Shown piece after piece: positions 23,485 to 40,863 of a stretch of 64,000 bases of DNA. The DNA is from Pirellula sp. (GTDB lineage Bacteria > Planctomycetota > Planctomycetia > Pirellulales > Pirellulaceae): positions 1-64,000 of the forward strand of contig JAJTID010000051.1 in the NCBI GenBank assembly GCA_021300155.1. Reading direction: 5' to 3'. A program made the translations under genes and the position numbers. Positions within the stretch are counted from its first letter, which is position 1; every line of letters begins with the position of its first letter. The notes below the pieces were generated by a model, which saw nothing but the letters and a program-made list of their open reading frames with translations, searched no databases and had not been told where the DNA came from.

Positions 23485-24465
23485 TCAGTCGGTCAATTGT
23501 TGCATGTCATTTTCGATCATGAGCTTTGCCAGGTCCGCAAGTGTCGTCTTGTGCTGCCAACCAAGCACGCGTTTTGCCTTGGATGCATCTCCAAGCAGTC
23601 TTTCGGGGTCGGCAGGCCGGTTGAACCGTGGATCGAGCCTATAGAATTTCTTCCAATCTAAACCCAGTTGTTCAAACGCCAGGCCGAGAAATTCGCGAAC
23701 ACTATGCGTCTTGCCAGTTGCTAAAACAAAGTCGTCGGGCTTGTCTTGCTGAAGCATGGCCCACATTGCTTCTACGAACTCTTGGGCATATCCCCAGTCC
23801 CGCTCTGCATCGATATTGCCCAGCACTAGCTCCGATTGCATCCCCAACTTGATACGAACGGCTGCCAACGTGATCTTGCGTGTAACGAAGTTCTCGGCGC
23901 GACGCGGGCTCTCGTGGTTGTAGCAAATCGCATTGCAAAAAAACAAACCATGTGCCTCGCGGTACACTTTCACCATTTGCGTCGCAAAGGCTTTCGCGCA
24001 ACCGTAAGGCGAATTCGGATTCATCGCTGTCTCTTCGTTCTGAGGGGTCACGATCGGCGTACCAAAAATTTCACGACTGCTCGCGTGCAAGAATTTAGGT
24101 GGCTTGGGCTGGTCTCTCAAAATCTCCATGATTCGAAGCGTACCGATAGCGGTCAGCTCGCATGTGCTCTCAGGAATCTCAAAGCTTAGGCCTACGTGAG
24201 ACTGTCCTGCCAAATGATAAAACTCATCGGGTTCCGTCTTCTGGATGATGCGTCGTATCGAAGTGGAATCCGACAGATCCGCATAATGGAGGAAAAGTCG
24301 TTTGCCGTACACATCCGGATCGTTGTACTGTTGCGAGAGGCGTGGACGGTCTAGCGTGCTACTTCGACGGACAATTCCGTGGACCATGTAGCCTTTCTCA
24401 AGCAACAACTCGGTGAGATAGGATCCGTCTTGGCCTGTAATACCAGTGATCAGTGCTGTTTTCAT
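23485..24465 (-). CDS. gmd: GDP-mannose 4,6-dehydratase
   Basis: Short-chain dehydrogenase/reductase enzyme that turns GDP-mannose into GDP-4-keto-6-deoxymannose, the precursor of GDP-fucose and related surface sugars. The NADP-binding GITGQDGSYL is at residues 7-16 (counting from 24465), with IVRRSSTLDRPRL, a SHVGLSFE motif, a SYK-type YGCAKAF and the RAENFVTRKI stretch. An upstream in-frame ATG at 24495 would overlap the preceding gene by 20 bases, so the MKTALITG start at 24465 is preferred. Last gene of a minus-strand run. Annotation is secure. Confidence 0.94.
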   Translation of the reverse strand: MKTALITGITGQDGSYLTELLLEKGYMVHGIVRRSSTLDRPRLSQQYNDPDVYGKRLFLHYADLSDSTSIRRIIQKTEPDEFYHLAGQSHVGLSFEIPESTCELTAIGTLRIMEILRDQPKPPKFLHASSREIFGTPIVTPQNEETAMNPNSPYGCAKAFATQMVKVYREAHGLFFCNAICYNHESPRRAENFVTRKITLAAVRIKLGMQSELVLGNIDAERDWGYAQEFVEAMWAMLQQDKPDDFVLATGKTHSVREFLGLAFEQLGLDWKKFYRLDPRFNRPADPERLLGDASKAKRVLGWQHKTTLADLAKLMIENDMQQLTD

Positions 24466-29850: not shown

Positions 29851-31119
29851 CTAGGCAGACTCGGCGAGACGGGTGCGATCGGCAAGCCAAAGTTTTGCCA
29901 TCGACCACGTGGTGGGCAGGTCGGCAGCGAGAATCGTCCAACATTTTGCATCGATATTCGAGGGGGCCGCGTCTTTCGTTCGCGTTCCCTTTTTTCGCTT
30001 TTCTAGCCAAGAAGTTACCAATCCGAGGGTGTCCTCTGGATCCAAGAGGCCGAGGCCGATCGGGGGCGAAGGTTTCGTGCAGTCCTGAATTCGCTTCAAA
30101 GTCGGCGTCCATTCGATTTTTGTTTTGGGGGCTGCCATCGCCGTTACAATGCCACCACCGCGAAGCAAGTACCATATCGTTCGTCCGTTGTCCGCTGGGA
30201 CGCAATAAACCGTCGATTCCGAGTCGCGCGCTCGATTGAATTGTGTTAACCGTCGAACGAGCCAGCGAATGATTCGAAGATCTTCTCTCAAGCGAGCGGC
30301 ATGTTCGAAATGCAAATTGCGTGATGCTTCGGCCATCATCTCGGCCAGTTTTTCTTCGAGCGAGTGATCGCCTCCTTGCAAAAACCGCTCCGCTTTCAAT
30401 GTTTGTTCCGCATAGAGACTTTTGCTACAAGTGGAGATGCATGGAGCGATACAATTCCCCAGTTCATGTCGAACGCAGCCAGCTCGTTGCTCCAAGTCGA
30501 ACAACGAGAGTTGCTCCGACAAGTGCATTGCAGTCTTTTGGCTGCAATCACGGAGTTTGAAATGCCGTGCAAGAATTTCGACGGCTCGATTGAGATTGGC
30601 AATACCTGGCAGAGGGCCGTGACTGCATCTGGCGATGTTGTCATGGTATCGACTGAGGTAAAGCGATTCCGCGGGTGGACGCCCCAGGCACAAATAGGCT
30701 TGCTGCTGCCGTTTGGGCATTCCGACAACATTCATTCGCGGTTGCCAACGGCGGATCAAACACTGCTCTCTCAATAGCGCCGCGAACTCGCTGGGTTGTT
30801 GTTCCCAAACGATGGCATGGGCCGACTGCACGATCCTACCCGATTTTTCTTCTTCGTTGTTGGGCAAGAAGTAGCTATAGAGTCGATTGCGAAGGGCCTT
30901 CGATTTGCCGACATATAGAAGTCGACCTGTCGCATCGATCATCCCATAAACGCCAGGAACTCTCGGCGCAGTGCTTCTGATGCTTTTTTTGAAAAACTCA
31001 AGACGTTCCTTTGTGGATGCATTGGTTCCGGAGCGAATCCAACATAGCTTCTCCCTAGAAAACGGGAGGTAGGGGTCGTCCCCAAAATCCTCGAATTGCT
31101 CGGTCCACTTTGCTTCCAT
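29851..31119 (-). CDS. GIY-YIG endonuclease, UvrC/Cho-like
   Basis: Protein of 422 residues. The N-terminal GIY-YIG nuclease domain (about 50-135) has PGVYGMIDATGRLLYVGKSK and the downstream Arg of RNRLYSYF. A Cys cluster (C-X6-C...C-X3-C, about 217-235) is followed by a UVR-like helix pair (LEEKLAEMMAEASRNL, about 255-295). It lacks the RNase H-like endonuclease domain and the tandem HhH of full UvrC (about 600 residues), so it resembles Cho, which makes a 3' incision in nucleotide excision repair, but with an extra C-terminal region. It lies 157 bases upstream of the SSB-like gene. Confidence 0.85.
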   Translation of the reverse strand: MEAKWTEQFEDFGDDPYLPFSREKLCWIRSGTNASTKERLEFFKKSIRSTAPRVPGVYGMIDATGRLLYVGKSKALRNRLYSYFLPNNEEEKSGRIVQSAHAIVWEQQPSEFAALLREQCLIRRWQPRMNVVGMPKRQQQAYLCLGRPPAESLYLSRYHDNIARCSHGPLPGIANLNRAVEILARHFKLRDCSQKTAMHLSEQLSLFDLEQRAGCVRHELGNCIAPCISTCSKSLYAEQTLKAERFLQGGDHSLEEKLAEMMAEASRNLHFEHAARLREDLRIIRWLVRRLTQFNRARDSESTVYCVPADNGRTIWYLLRGGGIVTAMAAPKTKIEWTPTLKRIQDCTKPSPPIGLGLLDPEDTLGLVTSWLEKRKKGTRTKDAAPSNIDAKCWTILAADLPTTWSMAKLWLADRTRLAESA

Positions 31120-31162: not shown

Positions 31163-34100
31163 TCAAGCTTGCTGAGAAACGAGGCTAAATGGAATCCACT
31201 CGACATCAACACGCGACAGGATACGAGGAACTAATTGCCAAGTTTCGTCGGTGGGCATCCAGAGCTTGTCGATCATATCTTCGAGATTTAAATTATTGGA
31301 TTCGCAAAGTAGTGTTGGCACCACATATATTTGACGAATGTCGATATCACATTGTGATGCAATTCTCGTTTGAAACTCCTCAGGAATTTGGGACCACGAA
31401 AGACTAGAGATGATTAGGGTCTTCCGCAGTTGATCTCCAAAATCCACAAGCTGCGGAATTCCATAAGCGATTTTTGCATCAAGATCGTATGGATCGTCAC
31501 TCGATGTTTTTCCTGTTGATTCCGGGCTTTGATTGGAAGTGAAACCAGCGGTTAACGCTCCAAGTGAAGAGATAGATGCCAAGTCAAGGGAAGATGTAAC
31601 ACTCGTTGACTCGTGAATAGCTCCTAATTGTTCGCGACGTTTTGTTTCAATTGTCGTTGTCAAAGACGCTAACAATTCGTCGAGCATCTTGAAAAGATTA
31701 CGATCCAGCGAACGGATTTTGTTATCCATTGTCGTGTTTAGGGAAGATAGGGATTTTGCAAATTCTCCCATTACCAATGATGTAATCTCGGCATTTCTCT
31801 TCCTCAAGGAAGCTTTGTTTTGCAGCGAAGGTTTTGCCTCGAAGAATTTGTCGATCGACCTACCTAGCACCTGCGTCGAAAGCTGCTCACAATAGATTGA
31901 AAAACTTGCTCTAAGTTTGATTGAAACCTGTTGCCATGCAACGCGAAATGGATCGAGATGCATGGCGATGCGAGCTAGAATCCTGCCTCCCACAACGTGA
32001 AAGGTTGATTCGATAGCCAATTTCGATAGCTGAGCATCCAACTCATGGTTTTTCTCATTGGTAGCAACGACCATTTCAATGAGTTCATCATGTTTCTGGC
32101 TCAACTTTTTTGCGACCGTGAATAGAGAGTTTGCATTCAGCTTCAATTGCACTTGGATCGATTCAAGCAAGGAAGGAAAGGCTTCCCAATTTGACGGGGA
32201 GTTCAAACACTTTTCCTTCAGCGTTGATTCCAACTGACTCATGGACTTCTCAAAGAGTAATCTTACTCCTTTCGCAAAATCTGGTGCTGGTATGCCAAGC
32301 TGTTCAGAGATCAATGGCAAGAAGTCTACGAACTCCTTTTCCAAACTATCTACTTCTTCCATGTCTGAAGTGGGCCCAGTTCCATCCGGTTGTTGCGTTG
32401 TAGGAACGATGCTTTTCATGCATTCACAAACCCAAGCCTGAGCATTCCAATTGCACTCTCGGAAGAGATCGGCCACAAGAAATTTGTTCTTCTCAGTTTG
32501 CTTAGCTGAGTTTTTCCCCGAGCTACTCTCGGCGGTTGCGATCGAATTGTTCATCGAAACGATCCACGGAACGACCGCTTGCAAAATCGCAGTTGCAGCC
32601 GAACGCTTGGGATCGCAGAACACATCTATCGGGAAGATGGTGGCGCGAATCGTACTAGCCCAATGGCCACCCGATGAATCTGCGGAGTTTTCTGAATCGG
32701 ACTCCGCCGTTTTTGATCGCGACAATAATAACGCAGCGATTTCTCGAGTTGTATCCGCTCTGTCGGCATCATTCCCCAACTGCCCGCCGTAAATGACTCG
32801 AACTTGATCAAACGGTGGACGATGGATTCCACTCTCTGGAATCGAAGGAAGTGCTGGATGCAACCCACCCGATCGGAAGTAGTGGTTGATCTCCAGTAAA
32901 CTAGCCATCGCAGAGGCCGATGCTAGGTCGCCTAAGGCTGTTGGACTTGGAGAAGCGCATGTGCAAATCAGATCGATATGAACGTTCACTCCCAACGTTT
33001 CTGCAGCCTGCCTTACCATAAACCCGAGTTCAGCCACCATCGCACTCCCCGTCCCACCCATGAGAGATGCGATCAGCTTGACGCGAAGGACTGATCTCTC
33101 ACCACCCTGCTCCATGAGATCGCTCAACGCAATCTGCAATCTCTCAAACACCAAAGCCGCATGGTCGAGAAGGGCCAACATGCCAAGAGGCCGGACCCCT
33201 TCAGTTAATTGAGATCGCGGTACGTTGTATACCCATCTTCTGCTCAGTTGAGTGAATGGCTTCGTTTCTTCGCGATAATAGTTCGGCGTCCTAATCGGTA
33301 GATGTAAGACAGATCCAAAATCCAATCGATGGGGATTGTTTCGGTCGACCAATAGTTCAAACGCTCGAGAATCTGTGTCCAAGACTAAGTATCGATCCGA
33401 CATCTCGCAATATGTAGCCGACGCAGATCGCTGCCTGCGGAGTACGCTCACGGACTCAATTGCAAGACCGCCTATTGCAATAATCAATTCCGATGGCGAT
33501 TCGGACGAAACCTCCGATGGAGCCCCTTCGATATCTTTTGGGTAGATAGCTTTTGCAACAACTGGATTTCTCTGAATTCCTGGCGCAGGAGTTCTCGATT
33601 TGGGCCCATCTTGCAATGTGCGCGCCTTTGGACAACCGGCAGAATTCCGATTTGCAGAGTTGTTTGGTAGAGACCAGTTTTTCTCCTTTGGCAGATTCGG
33701 ATTCCAGCCACGAACTTGCACAATCGGTAACATATCGACCTGCTCAACAGGAATAGCTGCATTCTCAATAGCCTGCACCATTTCTTTGCAGTCATTGAAA
33801 CGCTGTTGCGGCTTCTTGGAGAGCGCCTTGGCGATAACGGCCCGCTCTGCCGCCGGTAAATCATCTAGTGCAGGCGCTTTGTGCAAATGTTCATTAGCTA
33901 ACTGCGCAGTCGTGCGTCCACGAAAGGGCAAACTACCGGTAAGCATTTCCTGATAGACAATGGCAAGCGAGTATTGATCGCTATAACGACCAGGCCTACC
34001 ATCAAACATCTCCGGTGCAGCATATGTCGGCGTGAGACCGCCCATCAGAGACTGAGAATTGGATTGCAAATCCTTTACCAGACCGAAGTCGGCAACTTTA

Positions 34101-34567
34101 ATGCGATCGGAGACCAGCAAAAGATTTCCCGGCTTTACATCGAGGTGTTGCAAGTCATGTTTTTGGCAGAGAAAATCAAGACCTTCTGCGGCATCTTTCA
34201 GGTAGTTTAAGAGACGGTCTCGTGCGATTCCCGAAAAACCTTTTTCACGATAATCTGCATATTGATCCAACAAAGAACACTGAGCCAACTCGGTAACGAT
34301 GATGAGCTGGCTCTCTACGACTTCAATTCGTTCGAGCGACAAGATAAATGGGTGATTCACTTGTCGAATTCGCTGAAGCGACTTCAACTCGCTCACTGCC
34401 CGACTTTCGTCAATGCTACCGTGAACGATCTTGATCGCTTTTTGGAGTCCACCAGGAGCATCAGCAGACCACACGTCCCCATAGCCTCCAGAGCCTAGCT
34501 TCTCCTTGAGAACATACCCAGCGATAGGCTCAAAGCCTGCTTGCATTTTCGCGCTCAACATGCTCAT
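31163..34567 (-). CDS. Ser/Thr kinase fused to bacterial tubulin-like domain
   Basis: Fusion protein of 1134 residues. The kinase domain (about 17-270) has GSGGYG, Lys46, HLDVKPGN (141-148), DFG (160-162) and AAPE, all catalytic residues present. A Pro/Asn-rich linker (about 271-355) leads to a tubulin-like domain starting near 360. It shows IIAIGGLAIESV, a VLDTD strand, the RPLGMLALLDH helix and SLMGGTGSAMVAELGFMVR (502-520), the equivalent of the tubulin GGGTGSG phosphate loop, as in the Tubulin_2 family (PF13809). The rest (about 600-1134) is helical, partly coiled coil, with no transmembrane segment. The phosphate loop ends in SA not SG, so GTP binding is uncertain. It ends a two-gene unit with the AAA+ ATPase 7 bases upstream. 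Confidence 0.85.
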   Translation of the reverse strand: MSMLSAKMQAGFEPIAGYVLKEKLGSGGYGDVWSADAPGGLQKAIKIVHGSIDESRAVSELKSLQRIRQVNHPFILSLERIEVVESQLIIVTELAQCSLLDQYADYREKGFSGIARDRLLNYLKDAAEGLDFLCQKHDLQHLDVKPGNLLLVSDRIKVADFGLVKDLQSNSQSLMGGLTPTYAAPEMFDGRPGRYSDQYSLAIVYQEMLTGSLPFRGRTTAQLANEHLHKAPALDDLPAAERAVIAKALSKKPQQRFNDCKEMVQAIENAAIPVEQVDMLPIVQVRGWNPNLPKEKNWSLPNNSANRNSAGCPKARTLQDGPKSRTPAPGIQRNPVVAKAIYPKDIEGAPSEVSSESPSELIIAIGGLAIESVSVLRRQRSASATYCEMSDRYLVLDTDSRAFELLVDRNNPHRLDFGSVLHLPIRTPNYYREETKPFTQLSRRWVYNVPRSQLTEGVRPLGMLALLDHAALVFERLQIALSDLMEQGGERSVLRVKLIASLMGGTGSAMVAELGFMVRQAAETLGVNVHIDLICTCASPSPTALGDLASASAMASLLEINHYFRSGGLHPALPSIPESGIHRPPFDQVRVIYGGQLGNDADRADTTREIAALLLSRSKTAESDSENSADSSGGHWASTIRATIFPIDVFCDPKRSAATAILQAVVPWIVSMNNSIATAESSSGKNSAKQTEKNKFLVADLFRECNWNAQAWVCECMKSIVPTTQQPDGTGPTSDMEEVDSLEKEFVDFLPLISEQLGIPAPDFAKGVRLLFEKSMSQLESTLKEKCLNSPSNWEAFPSLLESIQVQLKLNANSLFTVAKKLSQKHDELIEMVVATNEKNHELDAQLSKLAIESTFHVVGGRILARIAMHLDPFRVAWQQVSIKLRASFSIYCEQLSTQVLGRSIDKFFEAKPSLQNKASLRKRNAEITSLVMGEFAKSLSSLNTTMDNKIRSLDRNLFKMLDELLASLTTTIETKRREQLGAIHESTSVTSSLDLASISSLGALTAGFTSNQSPESTGKTSSDDPYDLDAKIAYGIPQLVDFGDQLRKTLIISSLSWSQIPEEFQTRIASQCDIDIRQIYVVPTLLCESNNLNLEDMIDKLWMPTDETWQLVPRILSRVDVEWIPFSLVSQQA

Positions 34568-34574
34568 GTTCGCA

Positions 34575-36239
34575 TCATCCGTTCGTTGCTATGTTAGGCG
34601 AGTAAGGAGTATCACGGACCGCAGATTCCGAAGGGTTCGGAAATGGCTTAGGAACCGAGGAAAAGGTCTGTAGATTCTTTGGAATCTGCGCGATTGCCGG
34701 CCCCGTTGGCACAGTTCGTGGCGATTGCGCTCCAAGAGGCATCGGCGGATTCGGGAACAATGTTCGCTGTGCGGACTCAGTATTGGGGCGACCCAGTGAA
34801 ACGGAATTCGCAAGTCTCTGGGTTGCCATCGGTTCGGAGATCGGAGCGGGGGTAGGGGACGGAACCGAAGCAGTCCTCGGTGCATGCAAAAGCTCGGAGC
34901 CCAAAATCGGTGAATTGCCAAAGTAGTTCTTGCAAGCAATCTCCAGAAAATCCGTCCGAAGCTCCATTCGTTCATTTCGATAGGAACATAGGCACTTGAC
35001 CTGATGAAGCAAATCCCGTGGGTGGCACCTTCTGAGCGATCTGCCGGGCTTGCGAAAGTGGTTCTGTATCAATTCTTCAACGATTTCGGGTCTCCACGCA
35101 ATCCCGTAGGTCTCGCATGCACGTCGAAATATTTCCGTGAACTCTTCGATCGATGGATCCCCGATGTGAATCTTGAACGGTACCCTGCGAAGGAAGGCTT
35201 CGTCTACCAAAGATTCAGGTTGAAGATTCGTAGAAAAAAGAATGATCTGTTCGAATGGCACACAGAATTTCTTCCCCGTGGGCAAGTTCAAATAATCATG
35301 GCGATTTTCTAACGGAATGATCCAACGATTGAGAAGTTCCGCTGGTTCCATTTGCTGGCGACCAAAGTCGTCGATCAGCAAACATCCGCAGTTGCTCTTC
35401 ATTTGAATCGGAGCTTCGCAGGTATTGCTGCGTGGATCGTGTCGAATCTCCAAATGGTCCAGCGTAAGCTCGCCGCCGACAACGACGGTCGGTCTCTTCA
35501 CTCTCACCCATCGCCGGTCGTGCTCCTGATCTGCGACCAAACCGGAATGAGTCAATGTTTGCTTCGAGATCTGATGATAGGCAGCATCGAAAAGCTTGAT
35601 AATGATTCCGTCGTCAATAATCGCATGTGGAATCCACACTTCCTCGCCACGACAAGCGGCAAGACACCTTGCAATAGTCGTCTTTCCATTTCCCGGGGGG
35701 CCGTACAAAAAGATTCCGGAATTGCTATTGATAGCAGGACCGATGAAATCAAGCCACGATTTCTCGTAGGTTACGTTTCCTAGCGAGGAGATCAGCCTAT
35801 TCTTCGTTATCGCCTCAAACGTGCTAGCTTGGGCCTCGACACTAAGAATGTAATCCATCAACGGAACCGGAGCTGGGCCCGAATAGGAACAGTTACTCTG
35901 GTAGTTCAGCCCCCGCTTTTGCCCATTCTCCGTCAAACTATAGTAGAAGTCGTTCAGCGCAGCAGGACGTGCATGAACGATCAATTGCCTGACTCTTAAT
36001 TGAGCTAGCATCTGCTCGATAATTCGAAATGGGAGCTTGACTCGGTCCGTCAATCCGCGTCCCGTGATCGTCCCAACGCTTAGAAAGATCTGCAAAACGA
36101 GCGATTCTAGAACCATCTCCGAGATCCCACTCTCCTCGAGGGATTTGGGCTCAAATGGCCAAAATGCGTCCTCGTTCAGTACTGCGGGTAACGCATTACC
36201 GGATATCTGTACTGTGCTCGATCCAATCCTTGATTGCAT
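34575..36239 (-). CDS. AAA+ ATPase with N-terminal winged-helix region
   Basis: Protein of 554 residues. An N-terminal helical or winged-helix-like region (about 40-115) is followed by an AAA+ module (about 150-430) with Walker A GPPGNGKTT (180-188), Walker B CLLIDDFGRQ, sensor 1 ILFSTN and an RRVPFKIH arginine-finger region. The C-terminal 100 residues are Pro/Ser/Thr-rich and likely disordered, a plausible phosphorylation target for the kinase. It lies 7 bases upstream of the kinase-tubulin gene, so the two are almost certainly co-transcribed. Similar ATPases are seen near pilus or secretion genes in planctomycetes, but none are here; role unknown. Confidence 0.8.
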   Translation of the reverse strand: MQSRIGSSTVQISGNALPAVLNEDAFWPFEPKSLEESGISEMVLESLVLQIFLSVGTITGRGLTDRVKLPFRIIEQMLAQLRVRQLIVHARPAALNDFYYSLTENGQKRGLNYQSNCSYSGPAPVPLMDYILSVEAQASTFEAITKNRLISSLGNVTYEKSWLDFIGPAINSNSGIFLYGPPGNGKTTIARCLAACRGEEVWIPHAIIDDGIIIKLFDAAYHQISKQTLTHSGLVADQEHDRRWVRVKRPTVVVGGELTLDHLEIRHDPRSNTCEAPIQMKSNCGCLLIDDFGRQQMEPAELLNRWIIPLENRHDYLNLPTGKKFCVPFEQIILFSTNLQPESLVDEAFLRRVPFKIHIGDPSIEEFTEIFRRACETYGIAWRPEIVEELIQNHFRKPGRSLRRCHPRDLLHQVKCLCSYRNERMELRTDFLEIACKNYFGNSPILGSELLHAPRTASVPSPTPAPISEPMATQRLANSVSLGRPNTESAQRTLFPNPPMPLGAQSPRTVPTGPAIAQIPKNLQTFSSVPKPFPNPSESAVRDTPYSPNIATNG

Positions 36240-36539
36240 TCTTGCAAGCCCTTTTCAATCCAAACAGTCAGCCCAATCGTTAGGATTGCTTTTTACGTGT
36301 GTTTTGACTTTTTGGAGGATCGGCCGAACCAGGGGCGGATGTTGCAAGCATTCCGAAAATCCGCTCCAAGTCGAAAAAAAAATTTCCGTCTGGATCAATA
36401 TTTCTGTCAAGCACTCATTTCATGTCCTACAGTAGGACGATGCATTCTGTGTTCGTGGTCCGCTGTTTCGCCGTCCACAAATAAAGAGTGCTCGGCCCCC
36501 TCGTTAATGAATCTTCCGAGACGATTGAGTCTAGGTACT

Positions 36540-37679
36540 ATGACTGTTGACACCGGTTTCCGAAAAAATCCACTTTCTTCATCGGCTCTGCGCTCGCACG
36601 GATCGATAGAAGTCAAAACGGTTTGGATTCTAGAAGCCATCGGACAGGCAATGTCCGAATCGCTCACGGTGGTGCATCCTGTTCCCTTTTCGATTGGGAG
36701 AAAAGCAGGTTGTAGTCTTCAGCTACAGTCTAGAACTGTTTCCAGTCATCACGCAGACCTTACGGTGCGTGAATCCAATCTCTTGGTGATCGATCGACAA
36801 AGCACAAACGGAACTTATGTTAACGGTGTTCGCGTCAATGGCTTTGCTACACTCAAAACGGAAGATGTCGTCCAGTTTGCTGACGTTGCATTTCGTGTTC
36901 GCTGCGATGACCACGCAACTGCGTCGAATACTGTAGCCGAAGATGTATGCGATCAAGCCCTAGCACTCGTGCAGTTTGATCGCATGATGGAAAAGCGTCT
37001 GGTCACGCCATTCTTTCAACCGATCGTATCGATTGATGGATCCACTATCAAAGGCTACGAAGTACTCGCAAGAAGTAGGATGTTCGGCCTGGAAACAAGC
37101 GCAGCCATGTTCGGTGCAGCTGCGAAATTGAATATGGAAATCGAACTAAGCCAAATGTTGCGATGGGAAGGTATCCGTGAAGGATTAGCCTTGCCCAAGG
37201 GAAGTGAAATCTATGTGAACACTCACCCCCTCGAACTCGGGAGAAGCGATCTTCTCGAGTCGATGCGCAATGTCCGAGCAATGACGCCGGATACACCCAT
37301 CACCTTGGAAGTACATGAGGCCGCCATCACTAGTGCTCCACAAATGTTTGAATTGAGAAAAGGCCTTCGAGACCTAAATATCAAAATAGCTTACGATGAC
37401 TTCGGGGCAGGACAGAACCGACTTGCTGAACTGGGCAATGCAGCACCGGACGTGATGAAGTTTGATATGGGGCTCATTCGCAATATCGACAGCGGTCCCG
37501 TAGAACGCGTCAAAGTACTGCGATCGTTAGTCCAAGTTGTTCTCGATCTCGGTGTCATTCCCTTAGCCGAAGGAATCGAAACTGAAAAAGAAGCCGTCGT
37601 CTGTAGTGAGCTTGGATTCGTTCTCGCCCAAGGCTACTATTTTGGAAGACCTGCACCACCTAGCAAGTTTATCTCCTAA
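36540..37679 (+). CDS. FHA-EAL c-di-GMP phosphodiesterase
   Basis: Protein of 379 residues if started at 36540 (36507 is an alternative; the frame further up overlaps the divergent AAA+ gene and looks non-coding). The FHA domain (about 28-122) has GR (53-54), SSHH (68-71) and STNG (88-91). The EAL domain (about 145-379) keeps the catalytic set: Glu in EVLAR (174), Asn in VNTHP (227), Glu in LEVHE (257), DDFGAG (286-291), Lys in MKFD (307), AEGIE and QGYYFG. It should hydrolyse c-di-GMP. The FHA domain should bind phosphothreonine, made perhaps by the divergent kinase-tubulin protein. Confidence 0.9.
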   Translation: MTVDTGFRKNPLSSSALRSHGSIEVKTVWILEAIGQAMSESLTVVHPVPFSIGRKAGCSLQLQSRTVSSHHADLTVRESNLLVIDRQSTNGTYVNGVRVNGFATLKTEDVVQFADVAFRVRCDDHATASNTVAEDVCDQALALVQFDRMMEKRLVTPFFQPIVSIDGSTIKGYEVLARSRMFGLETSAAMFGAAAKLNMEIELSQMLRWEGIREGLALPKGSEIYVNTHPLELGRSDLLESMRNVRAMTPDTPITLEVHEAAITSAPQMFELRKGLRDLNIKIAYDDFGAGQNRLAELGNAAPDVMKFDMGLIRNIDSGPVERVKVLRSLVQVVLDLGVIPLAEGIETEKEAVVCSELGFVLAQGYYFGRPAPPSKFIS

Positions 37680-37694
37680 ACAATCGCAAAAGAT

Positions 37695-39803
37695 TTACGA
37701 CGGACTCATCGGACTGATCCCAAACCATAGCATCAGATTCCAAATCCATGTCTGAGTCCACGGATTCCATGTTGGATAACTAACCGACACCATCGAGAGT
37801 CCTGCCAGCAAGCTCAATAGGGCGATTCCCAATCGAAAGCGAATCAGCCTTTCCACAGCGGGTACTGATGCCATTAGCCAAAGAGGGTGTAGCCACATCA
37901 ATTGACGGAAGGCAGACGTCGTGCCACCGTAATTGCGTTGTCTCGTATCCAGGAGGAACAAGTAGAAAACGAGACATGCGATCGATGTAATTGTCGTGGC
38001 CGCTACCCATCGTCGTTGCTCCAATCGTGGACTCCAAAACCCGAGAATCAATCCGGGGATCGCAAGGATCAGAACGGGGGTCAGCGATACTATTCCATGA
38101 TGCCCGACCGTCGCATGTATTAAATAGTGACTCGTCGAAGCCTCCCCTTGATCCAGTGGATTGTCTGGCTTGCGCCAATAACTATCGACCTTCTTTCCGT
38201 CAAAGCCACGAATGTAGTCGTAGTCATACCAATTCTCTCTCTGTTTGCTATCCGCGGTGTTGACATCCCCCGCGCCAAAGGAATACGGCGGACTCCAACG
38301 ACCATGGGCTATATAGTTAGTCCCAAAATAAGCTAGTAAAACCAATAGCACTGCTGGTGCGCCCCACTGAAGTGTTGGGCGTGGTGCATGCCAAAGTAGC
38401 AACAACCCCAACATGCCCAATAAGCTCGCCGCAGGCAGTTCGCACGTAAAGGCAAATGCAGCCCAAAAACCGGCGCCGATGAAGTGCCAACGGCACTCTT
38501 TGCTTTGCCAACATCGTGTTGCATGCCATGTAGCTGCAATCGCACTGACCGCCCCCCACAAATGATTATTGAATGCCACCGCAAAGGTCGAAAGGAGTGT
38601 CGCAAAACAAATACATGCCATCAAGGCAACATAGGCGAGGTCATCATCACACCAATCATCTAAAAGCCTAGCACAATACCACCACGCGATCCCAAGTGGA
38701 ACAAGGTTGATCAACAACAAAAGGATGCGTCCGACTTCGAAGGGGTGTGTACCCAAGGTCCAGCCTGTTGCTTTGTTCAGAAGCCAATAGGGACCAGCCG
38801 CTAGAACCGCTTGCATCGGGGGTTTGCTGGAATACAACCGTTGCTCGCCTGATGAATTCATGTGGCTCACGACATCCACGGAGTCCCACGCTGGCTCGTT
38901 CTTCATGATTTGGTCGATTTCAAACGTCCCGAACTCGACAAGCGATCGAACGGTCAGCCATCGACTCCGATCATTGCCACTCAAAAATGGACGTTGCTTG
39001 TTCACTTCTGCAACGACGGCCAACAACAAATCACGCGTGCTCCAGGGTTGCTGAAACCTTTCGATATCCTGTCGGCGAATTGCGATTGGCCAATGATGCG
39101 TGGCACTCGCTTTGGCCGCCTTCACTTGTTCAACAATCTTGGGATCCCGCAAGCTGCTCGGGTCGAATGGATCCGGTGCCTTCAATTCCGATTCCAAAAT
39201 GTCTGGACGTTGCTTCCTGAGTTTTTGATTTTGTTCATCCGCGATTGCCTTCAACACTGGTGGAATCGCTTGTTCGTAAACCGCTTGCTCTTCCGGTTGA
39301 TTCGCTTCGGCAGCCAATATCGCTAGATACTTGAGCTCGGCAACTAGATCTTCACGGCGAAACTTGGTTTCAGCGACCACTTTTTTGACAAGCGAAGCGG
39401 TATCCAAAGCCTTGCCACGACTTACCCAGTTATCGCGTCGCGCCTGGATTGGCCATCGCCGCGTAGCTTTTGCTTTCGTATCCTTTGCCGCTTTGGCTGC
39501 GTCGGTGGATTGCAATTTCGATGCATCAAAAAGAAATTCTCGCTTCAAAAACTCGTTGTAAACCGCCGCCTCCTCTCCCTTGCCCTCCTCGCTCGCGACA
39601 ACCGACAAGTACTTTAACTCTTCCTGGAGGTCGGAACGGACGGTCTGTTCGTAGGTCAGTGTGTTGGTCGAGTTGATGGAAAAAAGACGCCCGACGATCT
39701 GGCCTGTACCGAGCAGAACCAAGATCAATGCGACTCCTGCGCGAAGAGGACTTCGAAAAACGTTAGACTTCGTTGTCAACTTCTCTGCTGGCGTTTGACT
39801 CAT
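37695..39803 (-). CDS. Multi-spanning membrane protein with duplicated module
   Basis: Protein of 702 residues from the ATG at 39803, which has AGGAG 9 bases upstream; the longer frame to 39962 overlaps the GT2 gene. One N-terminal helix (about 20-40) is followed by a soluble region with two copies of a module of about 90-115 residues (about 58-146 and 152-267). Each copy has an ELKYL..A.E....EE.AVY helix and a later WPI..RR plus L..VVAE segment. The C-terminal 400 residues hold about ten hydrophobic helices with the look of a GT-C glycosyltransferase, including a YSSKPPMQAVL motif. It follows a GT2 gene, so glycan assembly is likely; unproven. Confidence 0.75.
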   Translation of the reverse strand: MSQTPAEKLTTKSNVFRSPLRAGVALILVLLGTGQIVGRLFSINSTNTLTYEQTVRSDLQEELKYLSVVASEEGKGEEAAVYNEFLKREFLFDASKLQSTDAAKAAKDTKAKATRRWPIQARRDNWVSRGKALDTASLVKKVVAETKFRREDLVAELKYLAILAAEANQPEEQAVYEQAIPPVLKAIADEQNQKLRKQRPDILESELKAPDPFDPSSLRDPKIVEQVKAAKASATHHWPIAIRRQDIERFQQPWSTRDLLLAVVAEVNKQRPFLSGNDRSRWLTVRSLVEFGTFEIDQIMKNEPAWDSVDVVSHMNSSGEQRLYSSKPPMQAVLAAGPYWLLNKATGWTLGTHPFEVGRILLLLINLVPLGIAWWYCARLLDDWCDDDLAYVALMACICFATLLSTFAVAFNNHLWGAVSAIAATWHATRCWQSKECRWHFIGAGFWAAFAFTCELPAASLLGMLGLLLLWHAPRPTLQWGAPAVLLVLLAYFGTNYIAHGRWSPPYSFGAGDVNTADSKQRENWYDYDYIRGFDGKKVDSYWRKPDNPLDQGEASTSHYLIHATVGHHGIVSLTPVLILAIPGLILGFWSPRLEQRRWVAATTITSIACLVFYLFLLDTRQRNYGGTTSAFRQLMWLHPLWLMASVPAVERLIRFRLGIALLSLLAGLSMVSVSYPTWNPWTQTWIWNLMLWFGISPMSPS

Positions 39804-39879
39804 AGGAGAGGCTCCTGCTCGGTGTCCTTGAAGAGTTCCTTGAGGAGCTCCATGTTCTTGGGAGAGTTCCAAGGGGAAC

Positions 39880-40863
39880 TCAGTTTGGTCCGACGGCCTG
39901 ACCCAGCGATGGATCATTGATTGTTTGGCGAATCGAGTAGGGCGTTTGTTTGTCCGCTGCATTTGCGACCACCAATTCGGCCAATAGTCCCGTACTCAAA
40001 AACTGAAGTCCCGCGATGAAAAGTATCATCGCAAGATAAAACAAGGGTGTAGCCGTCAGATGAAAATCATTCAAACTGTCTGACAACCTCGTAACGACCC
40101 ATAGGAAACAAAGGAAAAACAGTATGGCCGCTGCCGAGCTGCATGCAAAGAAACCGATTCCACCGAGCAAATGTTGAGGTCGATAGCGATAGCGGGTGAG
40201 AAATACGACCGTGAATAAATCAAGGAACCCTTTAAGGATCCGCGATACACCATACTTGGAGACCCCATGGACTCTTGGATGATGCTTCACAGCCAATTCG
40301 GTTACACGGTAGCCTCGCGAGTTGGCGAGCACCGGAATGAATCGATGCATCTCTCCGTACATTTGCACCTCCCCCAAAACTTCTTTGCGGTACGCTTTCA
40401 GGCCGCAGTTGAAATCATGCAAATGCAGTTTTGTCGCCCATCGCAGAATTCCGTTGAACACCAACGAAGGCCATCGCTTGTGCCACGGGTCATAGCGAGT
40501 TTGCTTCCATCCGCTAACAACATCAAAACCCTCGTCTAACTTTTGAATCAAACGCGGAATTTCGGCCGGATCATCTTGGAGGTCGGCATCCATCGTGATA
40601 ACGATCGAACCGAGCGCTCTTTGAAATCCAACATGCAGCGCTGCGGCTTTACCAAAGTTGCGTCGAAATCGTATGCCACGAATATTCGAATGGCGATCCG
40701 CGAGCCTACTGATGGTTTCCCAGGAACTATCCGTCGAACCATCGTCAATAAAGAGTATCTCGAACTCACCAAGTGAATTGGTTTCGATCGAGGTATGAAT
40801 TCGCTGAACTAACTCCTCAAGAGAAGCCTGCTCATTCAAAAGCGGAATAACAAGAGAGATCAT
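39880..40863 (-). CDS. GT2 polyprenyl-phosphate glycosyltransferase
   Basis: Family 2 glycosyltransferase of 327 residues, DPM1/ArnC-like. The catalytic domain (about 1-220) has SLVIPLLNEQASLEELV, the nucleotide-sugar IDDGSTD site, the DADLQDDP metal-binding motif and HHPRVHGVSKYG. Two C-terminal transmembrane helices lie at about 232-257 and 266-290. It probably transfers a sugar from a nucleotide donor to undecaprenyl phosphate at the inner membrane. The next gene downstream is the multi-spanning membrane protein, a possible user of the lipid-linked sugar. Confidence 0.92.
   Translation of the reverse strand: MISLVIPLLNEQASLEELVQRIHTSIETNSLGEFEILFIDDGSTDSSWETISRLADRHSNIRGIRFRRNFGKAAALHVGFQRALGSIVITMDADLQDDPAEIPRLIQKLDEGFDVVSGWKQTRYDPWHKRWPSLVFNGILRWATKLHLHDFNCGLKAYRKEVLGEVQMYGEMHRFIPVLANSRGYRVTELAVKHHPRVHGVSKYGVSRILKGFLDLFTVVFLTRYRYRPQHLLGGIGFFACSSAAAILFFLCFLWVVTRLSDSLNDFHLTATPLFYLAMILFIAGLQFLSTGLLAELVVANAADKQTPYSIRQTINDPSLGQAVGPN

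Follow-up and report, generated by a model that had tools for sequence, protein, structure and literature searches.

The window analyzed here is a stretch of 64,000 nucleotides from a 6.46 Mb draft genome of Pirellula sp. (assembly GCA_021300155.1, contig JAJTID010000051.1, positions 1 to 64,000), and our subject is a group of three adjacent genes within it. The first (31163..34567, reverse strand) encodes a 1134-residue protein in which a Ser/Thr kinase is joined to a Tubulin_2 (FtsZl1-type) region with a predicted tubulin fold; we call this fusion KTUB. Upstream on the same strand, 7 nt away, lies the gene of a 554-residue AAA+ ATPase (34575..36239), and the short gap makes a two-gene transcript with the ATPase first likely, as an earlier note on this DNA had supposed. 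The third gene, on the forward strand, encodes an FHA-EAL protein. Its listed open reading frame (ORF) spans 36234-37679, but homology begins at about ORF residue 101, so the probable start is the ATG at 36540 (gene 36540..37679), with an alternative TTG nearby at 36525. The AAA+ and FHA-EAL genes diverge from an intergenic region (36240..36539) that likely holds their promoters and contains imperfect, possibly fortuitous inverted repeats. A hydropathy scan reveals no obvious membrane segment in any of the three proteins. We conclude that KTUB, AAA+ and FHA-EAL almost certainly constitute a functional unit. The module is real, conserved and co-inherited, and is built around a known fusion protein. 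Our overall explanation, in which it is a signaling module, probably cytoplasmic, with the mechanism set out below, we hold at just under an even chance.

The closest named relative found, an uncultured Pirellula sp. metagenome-assembled genome (locus L032), shows a best-segment identity of 80%, and its KTUB is 81% identical to that of the window. Against L032, the ratio of nonsynonymous to synonymous substitution rates (dN/dS) is 0.13 for KTUB, 0.07 for AAA+ and 0.08 for FHA-EAL, so all three are constrained proteins; no positive selection is seen in this single pair.

The kinase-Tubulin_2 fusion proposed in the earlier note is borne out by Pfam, the ORF lies where that note placed it, and the KTUB motifs it quoted are found in the sequence. 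The kinase domain (residues 18-264, 33776..34516) matches Pkinase with an E-value of 9.2e-33 and 114.2 bits (cut-off 31.7). Lys46, Asp143, Asn148 and the DFG motif, which we take to be the catalytic positions, are each kept in 39-40 of 40 aligned sequences (the loci of the KTUB tree described below, with L046 in and L068 out). HLD replaces the usual HRD, making this a non-RD kinase, with His and Leu in 40/40 and Asp in 39/40. The Tubulin_2 proteins of L078-L085 lie outside the kinase-domain scans. The domain has a dN/dS of 0.04 and is followed by a weakly conserved linker (residues 273-355, 33503..33751) with a value of 0.29.

The Tubulin_2 (PF13809) match covers residues 362-596 (E 8.8e-11, 42.1 bits, cut-off 27). 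According to the structure model, the middle and C-terminal region of KTUB folds as a tubulin. The nucleotide-binding N-terminal part, together with the first strand of the second domain, spans residues 357-644 (32636..33499), with borders inferred from predicted secondary structure. It includes the GGTG signature of the tubulin T4 loop (residues 504-507, 33047..33058), each position of which is found in 36-40 of 40 sequences; the T1 and T2 loops are retained as well. An insertion of long helices, at about residues 653-984 (31616..32611), is placed by the predicted secondary structure inside the second tubulin domain, and the fold is predicted to resume at residues 1029-1129 (31181..31483). 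KTUB is thus modeled as a tubulin/FtsZ fold with a GTP-binding signature loop that reaches near the C-terminus. The earlier note had named failure to fold as a tubulin as grounds for giving up its idea; the predicted fold sides with the note on this point and extends well beyond the limits of 355-700 that it had set. A search of solved structures with the tubulin alignment returned no tubulin or FtsZ; most of its matches were helical proteins aligned with the helical region, so that the tubulin homology of KTUB rests on the Pfam match and the fold.

The AAA+ ATPase begins with a MarR-like winged-helix head (about residues 30-117, 35889..36152), followed by the AAA+ core (about residues 166-440, 34920..35744), which contains a GPPGNGKT Walker A loop and an IDDFGRQ motif, and by a variable tail (residues 444-554, 34578..34910; dN/dS 0.34). 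The head described in the earlier note is recovered here; its disordered tail is probably disordered indeed, but is long only in the genus of the window among 22 aligned members. In the same alignment G.PGNGK.T, IDDFGRQ, FSTN and F.RR are invariant, presumably as Walker A, Walker B and sensor or arginine elements, and dN/dS for residues 1-443 is 0.03. Matches to P-loop models are weak and do not reach the cut-offs (PF00004, 19.3 bits vs 21.2), and profile matches in the PDB (CDC48, Msp1, spastin) align mostly near the P-loop.

The winged helix raises the possibility that AAA+ binds DNA and that the module acts on transcription or chromosome placement instead of on a cytoplasmic assembly. The head's best matches include MarR-like regulators and centromere-binding winged helices of plasmids (E about 0.006-0.03), and the divergent region with its likely promoters would suit such a role. 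Winged helices bind proteins too, however, and no conserved operator emerges from the AAA+/FHA-EAL intergenic region when four sequences are aligned. We regard this explanation as quite improbable. Paralogs of AAA+ were tried as a clue to function and gave none, with no neighbor common to more than 4 of 18 regions. These paralogs belong to another clade of the winged-helix AAA+ family, with lower scores, that is widespread in the class of the window, including genomes without KTUB; the genome of the window itself has a paralog as two partial contig-end copies (G000:C188 and G000:C226).

In the FHA-EAL protein, the FHA domain (ORF residues 153-215, 36690..36878) matches Pfam with an E-value of 1.8e-16 and 60.7 bits (cut-off 20.7), and the residues that we assume to bind phosphothreonine (Gly, Arg, Ser, His, Asn and Asn) are retained in all 37 aligned proteins. 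The EAL domain (ORF residues 248-473, 36975..37652; E 2.3e-32, 112.7 bits, cut-off 31.3) is intact in the window, as the earlier note stated, with 10 of 10 positions presumed to form the active site. A Thr in the intervening linker (36930..36932) is a candidate phosphorylation site; it occupies the same column in 29/37 proteins and lies within 2 positions in 36/37. Additional high-scoring FHA-EAL copies occur elsewhere in eight KTUB genomes (G006, G026, G029, G034, G039, G044, G050 and G059).

Relatives were collected through similarity to KTUB or Tubulin_2 only, and their neighbors were compared afterwards. Locus counts and the KTUB tree refer to 40 KTUB loci; the duplicates L032-L034 are left out of the counts, and the tree omits L062 and L067 (no tubulin found) and the contig-end fragments L046 and L065. 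Conservation of the AAA+ and FHA-EAL neighbors in related genomes, on which the earlier note staked its idea of a system, is what we find: FHA-EAL is present in 37 of the 40 loci and AAA+ in 31, in agreement with the genome counts below. FHA-EAL is missing from L058, L066 and L068; L058 is a contig end, and contig C811 of the same genome carries AAA+ and FHA-EAL alongside a fragment of KTUB.

The 37 loci with FHA-EAL fall into two types, newly recognized here by sequence comparison, in which cyclic di-GMP (c-di-GMP) motifs are either intact or lost from both enzymes while FHA stays intact. Type A comprises 20 loci, including the window, and 19 of these retain 10/10 EAL active-site positions; the other (L044) has 7/7 readable positions in an ORF shortened by a TAG inside the match. 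AAA+ is present in all 20, and FHA-EAL, elsewhere beside KTUB, adjoins AAA+ in most of them. Four Type A loci (L064, L075, L076 and L077) show the same-strand order GGDEF, FHA-EAL, AAA+, KTUB with GGDEF and EAL motifs intact, the GGDEF genes being identified from sequence similarity and the motif rather than from Pfam; the other 16 have no GGDEF gene in the stretch examined. Type B comprises 17 loci in which FHA is intact and 0 to 5 of the 10 EAL positions are retained, and AAA+ is found in 10 of these; the remaining locus with AAA+ is L068. In all Type B loci except L059, a related REC-GGDEF-CBS gene runs in the opposite direction to FHA-EAL (16/17: L047-L049, L051-L056, L061 and L069-L074, with a similarity of 21-31% for the last six). 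Of two such genes scanned with Pfam, that of L048 exceeds the cut-offs for REC, GGDEF and CBS, and that of L056 exceeds the cut-off for CBS and falls below that for GGDEF. The copy nearest KTUB is devoid of a GG[DE]EF motif in 16/16 loci; in L047, two further genes, farther off, do carry it. Loss of EAL residues and loss of the GGDEF motif thus go together. On the KTUB tree, the distribution of the types needs 3-4 changes, at least 2 of them forced by supported branches, and one genome (G059) holds both types (L054 and L063). The link to c-di-GMP drawn in the earlier note accordingly gains from the GGDEF genes found in some of these loci and loses from the degraded EAL residues in 17/37.

Gene families other than KTUB, FHA-EAL, AAA+ and REC-GGDEF-CBS are each found in at most 6 of the 34 loci. 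The secretion device that the earlier note offered as an alternative finds no support here, although the minor recurring families are unannotated and their rarity is no proof of absence. Downstream of KTUB, 43 nt away, is a UvrC/Cho-like GIY-YIG protein (29851-31119), which we do not count in the set because only close relatives (L035-L038, with the duplicates L032-L034) have it next to KTUB. On the other side, a 755-residue protein (37695-39962) with no Pfam match at E 0.001 adjoins a family 2 glycosyltransferase gene (39880-40863). The Pfam scan included 14 window proteins between 22285 and 45280, those at 23485 and 25485 being left out.

Co-inheritance was assessed in the genome of the window and 59 relatives (26 of the same genus, 10 of the same family and 23 of the same order). 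KTUB is present in 32/60 genomes and Tubulin_2 in 33/60. The difference is G055, with a Tubulin_2 match of 29.7 bits over 125 positions, which is not counted as KTUB; G040, with no kinase in its tubulin ORF, and G008, whose contig begins inside the gene, are counted. High-scoring AAA+ proteins occur in 28/60 genomes (the lowest at 687.7 bits, the next protein at 619.7) and FHA-EAL proteins over 300 bits in 29/60 (the lowest at 319, the next at 173), the G008 copy being partial and without its FHA part. Every one of the 28 AAA+ genomes and 29 FHA-EAL genomes carries KTUB, and high-scoring AAA+ and FHA-EAL are both missing from all 28 genomes that lack KTUB (Fisher p = 4e-13 and 4e-14, respectively, uncorrected for kinship). 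A phylum-wide sample of 392 genomes, which includes G000, G048 and G052 of the 60, yields Tubulin_2 over cut-off in 19, 11 of them in the class of the window, and an AAA+ of more than 700 bits in 10, all with Tubulin_2 within 5 kb; the exception within the class, G252, has Tubulin_2 and no such AAA+. Second Tubulin_2 proteins lie outside the KTUB locus in G006 (C1:6020705-6021730, a 1067-residue frame) and G034 (C123:9314-10354, a 1065-residue frame).

These patterns bear on the explanation that adjacency is inherited synteny without a functional link. Within the genus the three-gene layout is nearly constant, as synteny would have it, but the set persists while the flanking genes vary, and gene order and orientation differ between families. 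Furthermore, AAA+ is present on another contig in G029, G039, G044, G046, G050 and G058, so that copies away from the locus still co-occur. We consider bare synteny scarcely credible.

A stress, conflict or phage-defense system, in which the kinase-tubulin detects an insult and its partners carry out the response, would account for the patchy distribution (32/60 genomes, with 12 changes on an rpoB tree). PADLOC kinase models match the KTUB kinase domain well (PD-T4-6, E 5.6e-41; mad6, 2.8e-40), its IetA models match AAA+ (E 1.2e-8), and tubulin homologs are described in predicted conflict systems in parts of PMC7159879. The kinase models have no cut-off, however, and their matches may reflect general kinase similarity; the NCBIfam equivalogs are far from reached (MAD6, 89.7 vs a cut-off of 460 for the kinase; IteA, 29.2 vs 510 for AAA+), and FHA-EAL has no PADLOC match. 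With AAA+ and not KTUB among the queries, phage records gave no match, and 24 pattern matches in viral contigs yielded 0 confirmed relatives. A plasmid search with the kinase and tubulin query matched 459 records, none over 80% of the query, and of 10 listed matches 9 are annotated kinases and 1 has no annotation. In the one pair compared, purifying selection on the kinase and the AAA+ core is also strong. A defense role therefore seems improbable to us.

PF00091 (FtsZ/tubulin) matches none of the 60 genomes and 13 of 14 controls, and produces no row for the window KTUB; the absence of FtsZ in Planctomycetota is reported in the available part of PMC11032199. Given 0/60 for PF00091, Tubulin_2 is the sole tubulin-superfamily match here among the two Pfam families searched. 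The module is no general replacement for FtsZ, because 28/60 genomes live without it. A co-inherited set in bacteria where the usual division tubulin is not found suggests an unstudied signal-controlled tubulin device.

The mechanism that we infer begins with the tubulin part, which would bind GTP and assemble into an oligomer or filament, bringing kinase domains together. The kinase may then phosphorylate threonines on itself and its partners, among them the Thr in the FHA-EAL linker, and the FHA domain would read this mark and recruit or lock the EAL enzyme at the assembly. Local control of c-di-GMP would follow, with Type A coupled to c-di-GMP breakdown, and the dedicated AAA+ could remodel or reset the assembly. 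In lineages without EAL and GGDEF motifs, FHA-EAL would keep an adaptor role only; Type B sequences suggest that this role outlasts catalysis. That the whole sequence of steps holds is somewhat doubtful in our estimation. The boldest version, an FtsZ-independent, signal-carrying planctomycete tubulin cytoskeleton in which the kinase writes, FHA-EAL reads into a local c-di-GMP signal and AAA+ resets, and whose c-di-GMP enzymes decayed jointly to adaptors in several lineages, we judge unlikely as it stands. If true, phosphothreonine and c-di-GMP signaling meet at a tubulin-fold protein. A kinase-tubulin with fixed signaling partners in about half of the genomes supplies concrete genes for the question of cell biology without FtsZ.

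Several observations weigh against the module and its proposed mechanism. High-scoring AAA+ is lacking from the KTUB genomes G003, G008, G030 and G034, although G003 has the end of an AAA+ at a contig edge beside KTUB and G034 a contig-edge AAA+ fragment; FHA-EAL is lacking from G003, G030 and G040, and the tubulin ORF of G040 is the one without a kinase. AAA+ is also absent from the fetched stretch in 7/17 Type B loci. On the rpoB tree (58/60 genomes; G003 and G012 have no rpoB row) the KTUB, AAA+ and FHA-EAL traits each change 12-13 times, and supported branches give 5 independent contrasts for KTUB-AAA+, 5 for KTUB-FHA-EAL and 6 for AAA+-FHA-EAL. On average the partner changes in parallel in 4.2, 4.7 and 4.8 of these and never in the opposite direction, the rest showing no difference. 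The tests fall short of significance (median p 0.125, 0.0625 and 0.0625) because the contrasts are few and the partner is unchanged in some. The AAA+ structure model is poor (pLDDT 56), its core fold is not interpreted, and the term remodeler is hence borrowed from what AAA+ proteins do in general. Structural comparison of KTUB gives low TM-scores (0.21 by model and 0.44 by target for CetZ), in part because of the helical insertion. The T7 region, which in a filament would supply the missing part of the neighboring subunit's GTPase site, is modeled with low confidence and is unconserved (Asp587 in 23/40), which makes GTP hydrolysis by a filament doubtful.

The state of T7 also favors a simpler scheme, in which the tubulin part is a nucleotide-gated dimerization switch for the kinase, the long helices serve as a scaffold, and a plain relay runs from kinase to c-di-GMP with no cytoskeletal polymer. 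The placement of the helical insertion within the second tubulin domain would fit this, as would the much faster divergence of the tubulin part: leaving the nearest relative aside, its identity to the window is 16-37%, against 46-72% for AAA+. On the other side stand the tubulin fold with its T1, T2 and T4 loops kept, and the proposal in section 4 of PMC2875224 that Tubulin_2 relatives might form filaments through a novel mechanism. We think this switch rather unlikely and keep to the co-inherited signaling module as our explanation. The observation in the earlier note is confirmed and its overall interpretation partly supported; the cytoskeletal role that it proposed is one that we, too, can only infer.

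The kinase-tubulin fusion itself is already published (2010, 2023 and 2024); for the whole set, the earlier note knew of no described system. The accessible sections of PMC2875224 name the family FtsZl1, list four members from planctomycetes that carry a kinase domain at the N-terminus, and propose a role in membrane remodeling with vWA, GTPase and OmpA partners. PMC9871819, in the part available, repeats the fusion in Planctomycetes, and PMC11032199, likewise in part, gives the tubulin-like domain as the commonest of the domains found only in cytoplasmic kinases. No description of the KTUB, AAA+ and FHA-EAL set was found in the open-access literature, although the supplementary gene-family lists of PMC2875224 might mention partners; the available portion of PMC6952346 contains nothing on it. 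The partner set and the paired decay of c-di-GMP domains thus appear undescribed.

Compared with FtsZl1 as presented in the available text of PMC2875224, KTUB belongs to the same Pfam family, shares the planctomycete kinase fusion and resembles a family architecture of coiled coil followed by a helical domain. FtsZl1 operons commonly, though not universally, contain vWA, GTPase and OmpA genes, none of which was matched among the 14 window proteins scanned. T6-H7 and the C-terminal domain went unplaced in that study, whereas the present model suggests a helical region inserted inside the tubulin fold. The Planctomycetota kinases with tubulin-like domains have the same fusion, with no partner genes mentioned in the portions of PMC11032199 and PMC9871819 at hand. 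CetZ, TubZ, BtubA and FtsZ differ from KTUB, with 8-15% identity among the matches listed; unlike them, KTUB has no PF00091 match, an unconserved T7 and a fused kinase. The GAP1-N2 systems, one of the other tubulin-containing groups treated in the parts of PMC7159879 available, are alike in that they, too, are predicted to be regulated and include tubulin-domain proteins extended by helices. Those systems have GTPases and vWA proteins, and no linked genes of this type are found among the window neighbors scanned; here there are a kinase, an FHA-EAL protein and a different AAA+. Finally, the EAL domain is held in common with LapD- and RimA-type proteins, but the NCBIfam scores fall far below the cut-offs (RimA, 84 vs 430; LapD, 45 vs 1020), and here an FHA domain stands in front of it.

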